A stretch of 25,100 bases of DNA, from positions 1-25,100 of the IMG/VR virus record IMGVR_UViG_3300007735_000522; one strand, given 5' to 3'. Below are positions 6,533-21,467 of this stretch, piece by piece. Within the stretch, counting starts at the first letter, position 1, and every line of letters starts with the position of its first letter. A program made the translations under genes and the position numbers. Below the pieces are notes generated by a model that worked only from the letters and a program-made list of their open reading frames with translations, did no database searches and was not told the DNA's origin. This DNA is from a virus.

Positions 6533-8188
6533 TTATTTTACCCCTGTCGCCAACTGGTTTGCCAACGTAGTTGCTCTTGTCAACTTCGCGTTTTCTAAAC
6601 GCAACTGCTCTTCGTAGTCTACCAACTGCTTTGTCAGTGCACGATTGAGTGCTGATACCTGGCGATCACGCTCACTGATAAGACCCTGACGGCGATACTC
6701 CGGTTCAGCACCTGCTGCCCTACGTGCCGCAACAGATAAGCCGGGTGCCCCCGAAATACCACGCGCACCAAGAGACGCAAGAGATTTGAGTTGTGCTGCA
6801 TAGAGATCGCGTCCTGCTTTGCGGATTTGCGTTTCAGCACGAGCGCGTACGTCAGCTTGCTGATACTTGCCTTCTGTCTCTGCATACAACTTGTTTGCGG
6901 TTAGCCTACGGATTGCCTCTCGTAGCGCGTCCTGTTCCTCCGGTGTCCCACCCATTGCTGGTGTGGCGGTTGTTCCAGCAGCGATCTGTACAGTTGTTGG
7001 GACTTGAATAACAGGTGCTTTTGCAGTTACTGGTGCGGCTGTGATTGGGTTAGTGAAGGTTGGAACTTCTGTTGGTGGCTTTACGGGCACAGTTGGCAGA
7101 GTTGGGACCGGTATTGCTGGTGGTGTGGTCACCGGCGATACGCTTACTGGTGATACAGTAGGTGTGGTTGTTGCTGTTGTCGGTGTTGTTGTGGTAGTTG
7201 CGGTTGGGACCTTCATCTGCGCCGCAATGGAGGCAGCACCTATCGCGCCAGACTCTTGGGCTGCAAGTGGTGATGGCGCTACCGGTGGCCGTGTTGGTGT
7301 GCCAGCTATAAGAGTATCACCTTTGAGAACAAATTCACCCGTACGTATTTTGGGTACTATTTCATCAGCGTAGATTGTCGAAGTCTGACCCTTCCAGTCA
7401 GTGCCGGTCCATTGACCAGTTTCGGCATTGTACCGGTGTGTTATACCGCTGGCTGTTAGTGTCAATGGTAGGGCAAAAGTATAGCCGTTTATGGGATCAG
7501 GATTTGTGAAATAGACATTATAGCCCATTGTCTTCGAAGTTAGATTTTTGCTTGAAAACAGATTCGATGTGGGTGTTGTGGGTGTCAGGGTTGGCGTTGG
7601 GATAGTTGTTGGTGCAATGGAGGTTACGGCGCTCGGTGCGGTAAAGGTTGGAGTAGAGGTGGTGGTTGTTGGTGCCGTGGAGGTTATGGCACTTGGTGCG
7701 GTAAAGGTTGGAGCAGCAGCAGTGGTGGTCGTAGGCGCAGCCGCCGCCATTTGAGAGGCAATAGACGCGGCACCTATCGCGCCAGACTCCTGGGCAGCAA
7801 GTGGTGACGGTGAGAAAATAGGTGGTGCGGAAATAGTAGAGATGGGTTGAGTAGTTGTTGTTGGTAGAAATGGGGTCATGTCGGGATTAGTGGCTGCAAC
7901 AGTCTGTGCGAAGTTCTGTTGAGCGAACTGCGATCCGGAAAGAGTTGGTAGTGGGGCAACCGGCGTGCTGGCCGCCTCGACATTGGTGATAAGACCTTTA
8001 TTGATCAGTTCCTGCCGTATGTCCGCACCAGTCCGTTGTGCCGCATACCATGCTTGCTGTATCTTACTGCGCAGTTCCAGGGGGATAAAAAGCGGTATGT
8101 ACGCACTTTGAAGTTGTGCTGATGTAACCTGGGATGGGTCTTTGCCGAAGTAAGTCCTCAAAGTCGCATAAGCTTGTTCGTATGTCAC
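6533..8188 (-). CDS. Thr/Pro-rich virion protein with internal duplication
   Basis: A 551-residue protein starting at GTG 8188-8186 with GGAGG seven bases upstream. Residues 1-70 are a small helical domain. Residues 100-210 and 325-410 are low-complexity Thr/Pro/Ala linkers. Between them, residues 218-300 form a compact domain with aromatic and glycine residues (GYNVYFTNPDPINGY and TGQWTGTDWKGQTS). Residues 415-551 are a charged helical domain. A 22-residue block (PSPLAAQESGAIGAASIA core) appears at 126-147 and again at 304-325, and TFTAPSA(I/V)TS occurs at 161-170 and 181-190. It is the first of three large proteins after the tail genes and is probably a virion component. Linker-plus-domain architecture also suits a tail appendage. 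The product is not recognised by family. Confidence 0.72.
   Translation of the reverse strand: MTYEQAYATLRTYFGKDPSQVTSAQLQSAYIPLFIPLELRSKIQQAWYAAQRTGADIRQELINKGLITNVEAASTPVAPLPTLSGSQFAQQNFAQTVAATNPDMTPFLPTTTTQPISTISAPPIFSPSPLAAQESGAIGAASIASQMAAAAPTTTTAAAPTFTAPSAITSTAPTTTTSTPTFTAPSAVTSIAPTTIPTPTLTPTTPTSNLFSSKNLTSKTMGYNVYFTNPDPINGYTFALPLTLTASGITHRYNAETGQWTGTDWKGQTSTIYADEIVPKIRTGEFVLKGDTLIAGTPTRPPVAPSPLAAQESGAIGAASIAAQMKVPTATTTTTPTTATTTPTVSPVSVSPVTTPPAIPVPTLPTVPVKPPTEVPTFTNPITAAPVTAKAPVIQVPTTVQIAAGTTATPAMGGTPEEQDALREAIRRLTANKLYAETEGKYQQADVRARAETQIRKAGRDLYAAQLKSLASLGARGISGAPGLSVAARRAAGAEPEYRRQGLISERDRQVSALNRALTKQLVDYEEQLRLENAKLTRATTLANQLATGVK
7214..7813 (-). repeat. Duplicated 22-residue block within the 551-aa virion gene
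   Basis: The block encoding the PLAAQESGAIGAASIA core lies at 7748-7813 and again at 7214-7279, on either side of the central globular domain. A shorter Thr/Pro-linker unit (TFTAPSA core) is repeated at 7679-7708 and 7619-7648. The two long copies differ at several third positions, so the duplication is not recent, yet the protein sequence is almost unchanged. Confidence 0.8.
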
Positions 8189-18365: not shown

Positions 18366-18510
18366 TTCCACTTTGCGGAAACGGGGATCGTTTCTTTGAC
18401 GGTTCTATTTCCGTTGCTTCATAGTGAGTAGGTGTCTTGTTTTGGGTTCCGGATTCGATTTTGGGTCAAAATCTACGAGCGATAGTATATATACGGAGAC
18501 ACGCTGGCTC

Positions 18511-18527
18511 GGGGGGAATGGCCCCCC
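18511..18527. repeat. GGGGGG/CCCCCC hairpin
   Basis: Six G (18511-18516) pair with six C (18522-18527) across a five-base loop. No U-run follows on either strand, so a standard terminator is not supported. Confidence 0.6.
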
Positions 18528-18575
18528 TCGGCTGGTACTTTGGTCTTGGTCTGGTAGGTTGGCAGGAGCTGGCGC

Positions 18576-18837: not shown

Positions 18838-18927
18838 TCAGCTCTGGCGGTGTGCTGCTCGGTGTGCTGCTGACTTGTAGCACCACACAGCGCAACGGCG
18901 CTCTCCGCACTCTTCGCATCGAGGCAT
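18838..18927 (-). CDS. Four-cysteine microprotein (29 aa)
   Basis: ATG 18927-18925 is preceded by a strong purine-rich site (GAAGGAAGGAG, six bases before the start) and by the same two-hairpin leader found before the three plus-strand genes. That shared leader is the main reason to believe this very short ORF. The product begins MPRCEECGERRCAVWCYKSA and has cysteines at 4, 7, 12 and 16 with an Arg/His-rich end, so it could bind one zinc ion. It ends in front of a strong hairpin. Function is unknown; a small nucleic-acid- or protein-binding factor is conceivable. If the ORF is not translated, the leader copy would need another explanation. Confidence 0.5.
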   Translation of the reverse strand: MPRCEECGERRCAVWCYKSAAHRAAHRQS

Positions 18928-18948
18928 GCGCGTCTCCTTCCTTCTTCA

Positions 18949-19076: not shown

Positions 19077-19107
19077 GCGAGACAGTCTCGCCGCCGGTGA
19101 CACGGCG
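19077..19107 (+). promoter_or_regulatory. Two-hairpin leader, copy 1 (ArdA-like gene)
   Basis: Hairpin one is GCGAGA-CAG-TCTCGC (19077-19091). Hairpin two is CGCCG-GTGACA-CGGCG (19092-19107). The ribosome site AAGGAG follows at 19116-19121 and ATG at 19129. The first hairpin differs in sequence from those of the other copies but keeps the same shape and place. Confidence 0.65.
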
Positions 19108-19128: not shown

Positions 19129-19506
19129 ATGAACGACAACACCGCGACAGACCTGACCACAGCGCAGCAGCTGGCGAACATTCTCGAACAGGGCGACGAG
19201 GCGACCGACAACGATGCCCTCGTGGAACTTGTCGCCGACTTCTCGGAGGAGGCGGTCGTCGCCTTCGTTGAGATCCACGGAGCGCATTACTACAAGCTCG
19301 ACGAGGCAGACCAGTGGGCGGACACATTCCGCGACTGCTACATCGGCGAGATGACGGCCGAGGACTACGCCGAACACCTGCTCGACGAGGGGGTATTCGG
19401 AGAGGTTGGCGACGCTCTGCGGAGGTACATCGACATAGAGCACCTAGCGCACGACCTGCGTCACGACATACACGAGCTTGGCGGCTTCCTATTCCGCGCC
19501 CAGTAG
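19129..19506 (+). CDS. ardA: ArdA-like antirestriction protein
   Basis: ATG 19129 is chosen because AAGGAG lies seven bases upstream; the open frame extends further but through the structured leader. The 125-residue, strongly acidic product has FRDCYIGEMTAEDYAEHLL at about 67-85 and YIDIEHLAHDLRHDIHELGG at 100-119. Both match the style of the ArdA C-terminal half (a FxDxYxG motif, then YiDxexxaxDL). ArdA proteins are acidic DNA mimics that block type I restriction enzymes (and sometimes their methylase) as the phage enters. Typical ArdA is about 165 residues, so this one is short at the N-terminus. It belongs to the GC-rich three-gene island and would be expected early in infection. Confidence 0.8.
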   Translation: MNDNTATDLTTAQQLANILEQGDEATDNDALVELVADFSEEAVVAFVEIHGAHYYKLDEADQWADTFRDCYIGEMTAEDYAEHLLDEGVFGEVGDALRRYIDIEHLAHDLRHDIHELGGFLFRAQ

Positions 19507-19512
19507 CAGACA

Positions 19513-19558
19513 GCCCCGGACCGCTTCGGGCGGCGCAGGCTCACGACCTGACCGGGGC
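19513..19558 (+). ncRNA. Predicted three-way-junction RNA module, copy 1
   Basis: Seven bases after the ardA stop, GCCCCGG (19513-19519) pairs with CCGGGGC (19552-19558). Enclosed are CCGC-TTCGG-GCGG (19521-19533) and CAGG-CTCACGA-CCTG (19536-19550). The copy at 20558-20602 keeps all three stems with paired base changes in stems 1 and 3 and an identical 7-base loop CTCACGA. This is an intercistronic RNA structure; function is unknown. Confidence 0.6.
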
Positions 19559-19563
19559 ACGCA

Positions 19564-19597
19564 GTGCGCACAACGCGCACGCCGCCGGTGACACGGC
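19564..19597 (+). promoter_or_regulatory. Two-hairpin leader, copy 2 (308-aa gene)
   Basis: Hairpin one is GTGCGC-ACAAC-GCGCAC (19564-19580). Hairpin two is GCCG-GTGACA-CGGC (19584-19597). AAGAAGGA and ATG 19621 follow. Confidence 0.65.
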
Positions 19598-19620
19598 ACA
19601 ACTGAAAGAAGGAACAGATC

Positions 19621-20547
19621 ATGAACTGGAACAAGAACTACGAGCAGGACGAGAATGGTGTCGTGCGTGCCTGGGTTGACTACGAGGCAGACCATGCCTT
19701 CCGGAACAAATGGTACGAGGGCGCAGGCTGGGACGTTGACGCCTGCGAAATCGCTCGCAGAGAACTCGGCGCAGACTTCACCGAGCCAGAGACGAGCGAG
19801 GACGTGGACCAAATCGGGCGACAGCTGGAACACCTGGCAACCATCGCAGAGGAAGAGGCGGACAGCGCAACCGACGACGCGCAGGCTCTGGCTCTTCTCC
19901 GTCGTGCACGTGAACTGCGCAAGGCAGGCGAGTGCCTGCGCGTGAGCGACGACGATCGTCTCTTCTTCTCACAGATCAACGGCGACGAGGAACTGGCAGC
20001 TGCACGCCAGCTTCTCGCTGACTGGGACGAGGCTCACGAGGGACGCGTCTGGCTGGAAGATCGAGACGGAGACGGAGAACTCACCTCGGCGCTGGCTGCG
20101 TACGAGAGAGAACTGCGCGGCTCTCGCTCTGGCTTCTCCGAGATGGTGGTCGAGGCGACCGACGAGTGGCTCACGATCTCATTCTCTGGGTACGGTTGCG
20201 ACATGCGGGACCTCTCGCTGGTCGTGCGCTGGGGCATGCCAGTCGACGCTCTGCTCTCTTGGGCGACCGATGCAACCCTGGCACAGGTGAACGAGGCTCT
20301 GCGGATCGACGCGGAATACCCCGGCGCACTGAACCGCGCTCTGCGGTGCCTCTCTGTGTCACTCACCGAGCCGGACGCAGACGAGCTGCTGTCGGTGGCT
20401 GGTGGGATCCTCTCCTCATACCCTGACGACATGATGGACCGGGTCGTTCAGGCGCTGAACGTCCTGGAAGGTTCAGACGGTGGCGAGTGGTCCGGTGACT
20501 TCTCCGAGCTGGTCCGCGCCTCTGTTCACTTCTCCCTCGTCGGCTGA
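19621..20547 (+). CDS. Acidic protein of unknown function (308 aa)
   Basis: ATG 19621 follows AAGAAGGA with seven bases' spacing and the conserved leader. The product is very rich in Asp and Glu throughout, with few Lys, and has alternating helical stretches (ALALLRRARELRKAGECLRV; AARQLLADWDEAHEGRVWLE). The start MNWNKNYEQDENGVVRAWVD and the middle segment EWLTISFSGYGCDMRDL look globular. There is no signal peptide, membrane segment or catalytic motif I recognise. Being between ardA and another early-type gene, and strongly acidic, it could be another DNA mimic or host-defence inhibitor, but that is only an inference. The codon and base composition is GC-rich like its neighbours and unlike the late genes. 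Confidence 0.75.
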   Translation: MNWNKNYEQDENGVVRAWVDYEADHAFRNKWYEGAGWDVDACEIARRELGADFTEPETSEDVDQIGRQLEHLATIAEEEADSATDDAQALALLRRARELRKAGECLRVSDDDRLFFSQINGDEELAAARQLLADWDEAHEGRVWLEDRDGDGELTSALAAYERELRGSRSGFSEMVVEATDEWLTISFSGYGCDMRDLSLVVRWGMPVDALLSWATDATLAQVNEALRIDAEYPGALNRALRCLSVSLTEPDADELLSVAGGILSSYPDDMMDRVVQALNVLEGSDGGEWSGDFSELVRASVHFSLVG

Positions 20548-20557
20548 AACGCCGATC

Positions 20558-20602
20558 GCCTCGGCCCGCACTGGCGGCGCCGGCTCACGACCGGACCGAG
20601 GC
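20558..20602 (+). ncRNA. Predicted three-way-junction RNA module, copy 2
   Basis: Ten bases after the upstream stop, GCCTCGG (20558-20564) pairs with CCGAGGC (20596-20602). Inside are CCGC-ACTG-GCGG (20566-20577) and CCGG-CTCACGA-CCGG (20580-20594). Relative to copy 1, a C-G pair became T-A in stem 1 and an A-T pair became C-G in stem 3, while the stems stay intact and the loop CTCACGA is unchanged. Confidence 0.6.
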
Positions 20603-20606
20603 ACGA

Positions 20607-20637
20607 CCCGCAGACGCGGGCCACCGGTGACACGGTG
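20607..20637 (+). promoter_or_regulatory. Two-hairpin leader, copy 3 (137-aa gene)
   Basis: Hairpin one is CCCGC-AGAC-GCGGG (20607-20620). Hairpin two is CACCG-GTGACA-CGGTG (20622-20637), where an A-T pair stands in place of the G-C pair of copies 1 and 2. AAAGGA and ATG 20657 follow. Confidence 0.65.
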
Positions 20638-20656: not shown

Positions 20657-21070
20657 ATGGAACCGACGACGATCGCAGACGTGCGGCGAGTCTTCTCGCT
20701 GCTGGAAGAGGACGCAAAGAAAGCAGGACTGCTGCCAGACGGCAGGTTGCAACTGGAAGAAGGCTCCGCCACGTACGGCCGCGCCTGGCGTCTCGTCTGG
20801 AAAGACAGAGAGCCGACGGCACACTCCGGACGCGGCGCACACTTCCGCCCACCTCGACCACTGGAAGACTTCCTCGGCTCGACCAAGCGAGAGGCGTTCG
20901 AGAGCTTGATCCGGATGCGCAGGGAGATCTGGGACCGGGAGCAAGCACGCAAAGAGACTGCCGAGCTGCTCGCCTCACTCACAGCGCAGGAACTGGAAAC
21001 CTTCCGAGTCTTGCTCGCTGACGGGGGGCTCACGATCGAGGAGGCGGCCGCTGCTGCTCGCAAACTCTGA
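20657..21070 (+). CDS. Unknown helical protein (137 aa), third gene of GC-rich island
   Basis: ATG 20657 follows AAAGGA seven bases upstream and the third copy of the leader. Residues 1-55 (TIADVRRVFSLLEEDAKKAG, then an aromatic ATYGRAWRLVW strand) look like a small alpha/beta unit. Residues 75-137 are helical (REAFESLIRMRREIWDREQA; LTAQELETFRVLLADGG). The ending GLTIEEAAAAARKL resembles a short helix-turn-helix tail but is too brief to call. No family is recognised. It is the last gene before a strong hairpin and convergent minus-strand genes. Confidence 0.7.
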   Translation: MEPTTIADVRRVFSLLEEDAKKAGLLPDGRLQLEEGSATYGRAWRLVWKDREPTAHSGRGAHFRPPRPLEDFLGSTKREAFESLIRMRREIWDREQARKETAELLASLTAQELETFRVLLADGGLTIEEAAAAARKL

Positions 21071-21092: not shown

Positions 21093-21120
21093 CGGCGCTG
21101 ACCGAGCAGGTCAGTCGCCG
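21093..21120. terminator. Hairpin between convergent genes
   Basis: CGGCG plus CTGACC pairs with GGTCAG, one bulged T, and CGCCG across the loop GAGCA. It lies 23 bases after the 137-aa gene and covers the stop codon of the opposing 118-aa gene, so it could end transcription from both sides. There is no strong U-run. The preceding GGGCGGCGC matches part of the three-way-junction modules, suggesting a degenerate third copy. Confidence 0.5.
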
Positions 21121-21467
21121 TCTGGCTGCTTGCGTTGGGCCGTCGAGCCACGACCCGCCTCCACTGCGTCCCGCCATGCCCAGAGCAGGACGAGGTGCTC
21201 GTCCCTGAACGTGAGCAGCAGCGCCGGTGCGTTGTGCCCTTCGTCCAGAAGCTCGCGGATGATGGGCCGACGATCCACGCCCCTGGTCAGGTTGAGGGCG
21301 TCCGTCCGTGCGATCTTGGCGTTCGCCAGCTCGGTGGCGTACCGTCTTTTCAGTCGAGCCACGACCCTCCTATCCGCCTTGCTGATACGCGGTCGAGCCA
21401 CGACCCCACTGCTCTCCGGGAGGAGACCGTACTGTGCCAGCACTGGACGTAGTTCTTCTTCTGTCAT
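21111..21467 (-). CDS. Unknown basic protein (118 aa)
   Basis: ATG 21467-21465 lies one base after the stop of the sigma-like gene, with GGAGG seven bases upstream, inside the end of that gene, so the two are translated together. The product has an N-terminal helix (MTEEELRPVLAQYGLLPESS), a basic helical middle with two VVAR segments (RISKADRRVVARLKRRYATE) and a helical end (LLLTFRDEHLVLLWAWRDAV). The basic middle could bind nucleic acid. Family is not recognised. The gene contains three copies of a 14-base dyad sequence, one in a different reading frame from the other two. Coupling to a sigma-like gene suggests a regulatory partner, by inference only. Confidence 0.7.
   Translation of the reverse strand: MTEEELRPVLAQYGLLPESSGVVARPRISKADRRVVARLKRRYATELANAKIARTDALNLTRGVDRRPIIRELLDEGHNAPALLLTFRDEHLVLLWAWRDAVEAGRGSTAQRKQPDGD
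21142..21405 (+). repeat. Three copies of GTCGAGCCACGACC
   Basis: The 14-mer occurs at 21142-21155, 21353-21366 and 21392-21405, all in the same orientation inside the 118-aa gene. Each is a small dyad (GTCG-AGCCA-CGAC). Copies two and three are read in the same frame, copy one in another, so protein conservation alone cannot explain the repetition. Confidence 0.75.

Follow-up and report, generated by a model that had tools for sequence, protein, structure and literature searches.

Intergenic tRNAs punctuate mitochondrial transcripts, serving as cut sites that free single-gene mRNAs, and RNase P is also known to cleave individual mRNAs of phages or bacteria. Plant mitochondria contain t-elements, which are tRNA-like cut sites between genes, and a tRNA-like fold in MALAT1 is processed by RNase P and RNase Z, releasing mascRNA as a small RNA (PMC4919922). 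Within phage RNA and within mRNAs, polycistronic ones included, tRNA-like folds are cleaved by bacterial RNase P, whose non-tRNA substrates include the P1/P7 C4 antisense RNA, phage M3 RNA, T4 gene 32 mRNA, and polycistronic operon mRNAs (PMC11143913).

The window, meaning the whole 25.1-kb stretch of DNA that was analyzed, is an IMG/VR virus record that carries tRNA-like modules in two successive intercistronic gaps. The arrangement resembles mitochondrial punctuation and t-elements, in which tRNAs or tRNA-like elements between genes act as cut sites; those systems are organellar, whereas the phage operons considered here contain dedicated anticodon-armless elements followed by a leader hairpin. 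It also resembles mascRNA and menRNA, which are tRNA-like, have a reduced or absent anticodon arm, and are cut by RNase P and RNase Z from within a longer transcript, but these are single-copy, 3'-terminal parts of animal long noncoding RNAs, and neither window copy matches them. The known non-tRNA substrates of RNase P are individual cases, whereas the window type is a repeated element between successive genes. Such elements in phages were not described in the literature searched, which left subscription journals mostly outside.

Modules and leaders of the three-gene unit

The terminase and portal genes of the window are on the minus strand, and an island at approximately 18.5 to 21.1 kb has a G+C content of 62 to 65%, compared with near 52% for the remaining genome. 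Both gaps of the three-gene unit in this island have the same layout: a stop codon, a spacer of 6 or 10 nt, the module, an A, hairpin, GTGACA-loop hairpin, Shine-Dalgarno-like sequence, and ATG. Neither promoter-like nor terminator-like sites were found in the gaps or at the modules.

19077-19107, plus strand: leader of gene 1, of the same two-hairpin design, without an upstream tRNA-like structure (gene 1 is the first of the unit)
19129-19506, plus strand: gene 1, 125 aa, ArdA-like antirestriction protein (Pfam PF07275, E 2.5e-8; PHROG 2059)
19513-19558, plus strand: module 1 (M1), anticodon-armless tRNA-like structure, 6 nt after the gene 1 stop codon
19513-19519/19552-19558, plus strand: M1 acceptor-like stem
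19521-19524/19530-19533, plus strand: M1 D-like arm
19536-19539/19547-19550, plus strand: M1 T-like arm, with loop CTCACGA at 19540-19546
19559, plus strand: M1 discriminator-like A
19564-19597, plus strand: leader of gene 2, two hairpins, then Shine-Dalgarno-like AAGAAGG
19564-19580, plus strand: gene 2 leader hairpin I, GTGCGC-ACAAC-GCGCAC
19584-19597, plus strand: gene 2 leader hairpin II, GCCG-GTGACA-CGGC
19621-20547, plus strand: gene 2, 308 aa, no match in the Pfam/PHROG family search
20558-20602, plus strand: module 2 (M2), second tRNA-like structure, 10 nt after the gene 2 stop codon
20558-20564/20596-20602, plus strand: M2 acceptor-like stem
20566-20569/20574-20577, plus strand: M2 D-like arm
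20580-20583/20591-20594, plus strand: M2 T-like arm, with loop CTCACGA at 20584-20590
20603, plus strand: M2 discriminator-like A
20607-20637, plus strand: leader of gene 3, two hairpins
20607-20620, plus strand: gene 3 leader hairpin I, CCCGC-AGAC-GCGGG
20622-20637, plus strand: gene 3 leader hairpin II, CACCG-GTGACA-CGGTG
20657-21070, plus strand: gene 3, 137 aa, with relatives in L023 (83%) and L052 (41%); the L052 relative belongs to an operon that carries several tRNA-like structures

M1 reads GCCCCGG A CCGC TTCGG GCGG CG CAGG CTCACGA CCTG A CCGGGGC, and M2 reads GCCTCGG C CCGC ACTG GCGG CG CCGG CTCACGA CCGG A CCGAGGC. A sequence-only reading of this DNA had placed a three-way-junction module in both gaps, and both copies are indeed present, with the three-way junction as the minimum-free-energy fold of each (z of -2.6 for M1 and -2.05 for M2 relative to dinucleotide-shuffled sequence, modest evidence by themselves). 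It had correctly described the two substitutions between the copies, a closing-stem pair changing from C-G to T-A and a third-arm pair from A-T to C-G, and the hairpins of the leader that it saw just downstream were likewise confirmed. It was right to put the modules shortly after a stop codon, although the actual distances are 6 and 10 nt and not the 7 to 11 bases given.

The acceptor-like stem has seven pairs in both modules, matching the 7-bp acceptor stem of tRNA, and a 2-nt linker replaces the anticodon arm. A T54-A58 pair is usual in tRNA T loops. The modules depart from the canonical T arm (5 bp with loop TTCRANY) in having 4 bp plus a mismatch and a CTCACGA loop without this pair, and the sequences 3' of them (ACGC and ACGA) contain no CCA. 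ARAGORN found no tRNA in the window, and Rfam matched nothing there, neither a hammerhead nor mascRNA-menRNA (the latter up to E 5). The modules are thus not tRNAs, as had been stated, but the reason given, lack of a T arm, was mistaken: a T-arm counterpart is present, and it is the anticodon arm that is missing.

The GTGACA hairpin occurs in seven leaders of the window and its relative L023, with stems that vary (CGCCG/CGGCG, CACCG/CGGTG, CCTCG/CGAGG, and others). One of these leaders, of the same two-hairpin design, precedes a 29-aa cysteine-rich open reading frame at 18839-18928 on the minus strand of the window, which is kept in L023. In the window, L023, L053, L068, L061, L070, and L073, one leader hairpin has a loop that hardly varies within each phage but is distinct from phage to phage (GTGACA, GTAGCA, TTAGGA, CCGAT/CAGAT, and TTACAG), whereas the stems are variable, as if the loop were read by a phage-specific factor. 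A kissing interaction of the module loop (UCAC) with leader hairpin II (GUGA) was weighed but rejected, since leaders without a module share the loop and L053 has GTAGCA.

Two further sequence features lie around the unit. In a minus-strand gene at 21111-21467, the nucleotide motif GGGTCGTGGCTCGAC occurs on the minus strand at 21141-21160, 21352-21371, and 21391-21410, and its copies in the window are translated in different frames (VVAR, RGSTA). Its counterpart in L061, L068, and L070 is GGCTCGTCCTC, present in several copies whose frames give VARP and AGSSS, which suggests a phage-specific motif acting at the DNA or RNA level. A noncoding block at approximately 18471-18540 (GCGATAGTATATATACG ... 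GGGGGAATGGCCCCCC) recurs upstream of the variable island in terminase relatives and is possibly a packaging, origin, or control site.

Covariation among relatives

The only close relative found in IMG/VR was L023, in which M2 differs by one change in 45 nt, located in the junction, while the flanking DNA is approximately 79% identical; L023 lacks both the ArdA gene and module 1. Two further relatives, L061 and L068, were reached through their terminase and sigma-like proteins, and their islands hold other, unrelated genes. The first gap of L068 contains GCGCTTC C CTGA TCAG TCGG CA AAGG TTCACGA CCTA GGAGCGC A, an element that has the dimensions of those in the window, most of its pairs changed, and a TTCACGA loop. 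The gap of L061 contains GAGCGG AGTG GTCGG CACT CTCG CCGGG TTCAATT CCCGG CCGCTC A, which comprises an acceptor stem, a D arm, and a canonical T arm without an anticodon arm; its nearest Rfam match is mascRNA-menRNA (RF01684; E 1e-4), at 31.1 bits, under the family threshold of 42.5. No clear element was found in L073, L076, or L070, which are among the close relatives and have short or degenerate islands.

In L068 and L061, compensatory changes occur in all three stems of the three-way fold, and these two elements were located by place, not by fold, although the unselected set is small (M1, M2, L023, L068, and L061). Homologous gaps without covariation had been named in advance as the observation that would speak against a conserved RNA, and the gaps of L061 and L068 instead keep the fold with changed pairs. 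Among the window-type elements (M1, M2, L023, L068, and L144), pairing is possible in 98.7% of cells, and both partners are changed in 10 of the 15 pairs, compared with 4.3 such pairs in shuffles and 1 to 3 when the partner strand was slid, which lowered pairing to 29 to 43%. For a set of 17 elements, most of which were found through this fold and are therefore partly selected, so that the counts lean towards the fold, 97.3% of cells pair (35 to 47% in slid controls), 15 of 16 pairs are changed on both sides, and every pair of the acceptor-like stem shows such a change. The earlier claim of a conserved three-way-junction RNA with compensatory changes is therefore upheld and much strengthened. 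The claim that the CTCACGA loop is invariant holds only for the window and L023; T loops are TTCACGA in L068 and TTCAATT or TTCGATT in other relatives.

The 3' ends of tRNAs often serve as recombination or integration sites. The modules could accordingly mark cassette boundaries at which early genes of the variable island are swapped, and both the replacement of the island by unrelated genes among relatives and the joint absence of the ArdA gene and module 1 from L023 fit such a reading. A recombination site would keep its sequence, however, whereas here it is the pairing that is kept; copies differ within one phage (L052, L143, and L111), and an unsystematic look noticed no recombinase near the modules. 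A role as cassette boundary is consequently considered highly improbable. Attachment site, terminator, and chance were likewise weighed as explanations and ranked low.

A wider class of intercistronic tRNA-like elements

The wider class was defined as acceptor-, D-, and T-like arms without an anticodon arm, beginning 0 to 20 nt past a stop codon and followed by a leader hairpin and a start codon, and was searched for with a structure descriptor and then with a DNA pattern for armless elements. Both window modules fall within this definition, and sequence comparison shows the fold, its compensatory conservation, its fixed place between stop codon and leader, and its likeness to canonical tRNA halves in related phages. 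Elements were found in the uncultured phages L052, L143, L110, L111, L144, L154, and others, mostly 5 to 13 nt after a stop codon and before a start codon, and the first five of these phages have two to four element-bearing gaps each. Members of the class have an acceptor-like stem, a D-like arm, and a T-like arm whose loop is 7 nt long; a discriminator-like A comes next, and a hairpin lies 2 to 5 nt further on. The elements of L061, L052, and others have the canonical T arm, unlike the window modules, and such elements also lie between stop and start codons in the terminase relatives L079, L083, and L086; one such gap of L083 is occupied by a complete tRNA-Lys.

At descriptor scores of 20 or higher, 14 of 16 matches lay 0 to 15 nt after the stop codon of an open reading frame of at least 50 codons (1.25 expected), and a hairpin started 1 to 6 nt past the element in 17 of 19. 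Seven matches scored 19 or higher in 725 kb (both strands) of the window and related loci, and all seven were intercistronic elements, compared with 6 at 19 or higher and 2 at 20 or higher per 4.2 Mb of shuffled sequence; the window copies scored 21.7 and 20.7. Matches to the window pattern in L003 to L045 other than L023 were discarded, one as chance and the others as a single recurring, apparently coding stretch that contains the motif, and matches to the leader motif in L046 to L050 were attributed to chance. No named phage carrying the element was found in a search by similarity of neighboring genes, not by fold, and named phages with the element may exist; Mycobacterium phage Jeon, the one named phage with a weak match, had no element in the 8.4 kb examined.

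The main weakness of a processing role is that a covariance model built from canonical elements of other phages (R1) misses the window copies, which were undetected even at E 10. This failure, together with a window T loop that departs from the tRNA consensus, would also fit if the modules were sites for another nuclease or elements for translation coupling or attenuation, with the tRNA likeness reflecting convergence on a compact three-way junction. Intermediate loops exist, however: three successive gaps of L144 have T loops TTCGATT, TTCGATT, and TTCATGA, the third in an element with the exact dimensions of module 1, and L068 has TTCACGA. The G-C closing pairs of the T arm and the A-C that follows are common to both types, the best nontraining matches of a window-type model (R2) were three canonical elements (L111, E 0.05; L165 and L143, E 0.8), and no terminator-like site was found in the gaps. 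Such convergence is held to be quite improbable, and we infer that the window modules are tied to the canonical elements through the intermediates in L144 and L068.

Model R1 also matched sequences in other settings. Six consecutive armless tRNA-like matches, spaced at approximately 110 to 140 nt, lie at L150:2320-2954 in an unrelated phage and are an array, not gene punctuation. Haloarchaeal genomes (Haloarcula and Halomicroarcula) contain armless tRNA-like sequences with a canonical T arm (R1 E 7e-5 and 0.006), as follows; other matches in the genome_contigs scan were chance.

L177:2717-2766: haloarchaeal armless tRNA-like sequence
L194:301-350: haloarchaeal armless tRNA-like sequence
L175:4386-4435: haloarchaeal armless tRNA-like sequence

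A phage contig carries a ROOL RNA (L153:5187-5907, above the Rfam cut-off) immediately 3' of two tRNA genes, with a further tRNA at 7172-7243.

Proposed processing of the polycistronic transcript

In L143, one gap contains a type II hammerhead ribozyme (RF02276) that scores above the Rfam cut-off and starts at the stop codon, and tRNA-like elements occupy three other gaps of the same operon. The hammerhead resembles the modules in filling an intercistronic gap and differs in being self-cleaving; the window has no hammerhead match, in line with the sequence-only reading, which saw no hammerhead core there, though one of the equivalent gaps in L143 has one. As judged from the sequences, then, the equivalent place in other phages holds a complete tRNA or a hammerhead. 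What hammerheads, complete tRNAs, and truncated ones have in common, and what suits this place, is that the RNA is cut there. Because of this, and because neither promoter-like nor terminator-like sites were found in the gaps, the modules are read as intercistronic processing elements. Processing, terminator or antiterminator, and riboregulator functions had all been proposed earlier; the first is the best supported, and the modules lack a terminator-like site.

The modules are probably cut by host RNase P on the 5' side and by RNase Z on the 3' side, freeing the mRNA of the next gene; cleavage itself, the enzymes responsible, and any consequences for mRNA stability and expression are what we infer from these comparisons. 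In this model, each module would punctuate the polycistronic phage transcript as an anticodon-armless tRNA-like RNA, and its acceptor-like stem and T-like arm, the former stacked on the latter, would mimic the part of a precursor tRNA that is read by host RNase P. The predicted RNase P cut is on the 5' side of the closing stem, immediately past the upstream stop codon, and the predicted RNase Z cut follows the discriminator-like A. The downstream mRNA would then begin with 2 to 5 nt and a stable 5' hairpin before its ribosome-binding site.

The same two cuts would release the module, and the element might instead be kept for this small, stable tRNA-like product, which could work in trans during infection, perhaps as bait for host enzymes such as tRNA nucleases, RNase P, or those that modify tRNAs; the mRNA cut would then be a by-product. 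mascRNA, the nearest Rfam match of the L061 element, is released in this manner by RNase P and RNase Z (PMC4919922), and several phages have at least two copies. Selection for a trans-acting product appears unlikely, since every stem drifts and the T loop varies by phage, yet the position after the stop codon and before the leader hairpin is kept, and the hammerhead in the equivalent gap of L143 yields no tRNA-like product.

Beyond the processing role proposed for the window modules, it seems, on balance, that dedicated armless tRNA-like elements, interchangeable with complete tRNAs and hammerheads, are a widespread and undescribed means by which phage operons are split into single-gene mRNAs via host RNase P and RNase Z. 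The literature searched contained no dedicated tRNA-like element that recurs from gap to gap along a phage operon, and because a hammerhead fills one gap of an operon of this kind, the function is directly testable. If this reading is correct, the element has been overlooked by gene finders and tRNA scanners and would provide a ready-made cistron separator, and phages would have hijacked two essential tRNA-maturation enzymes to shape the mRNA of each gene.
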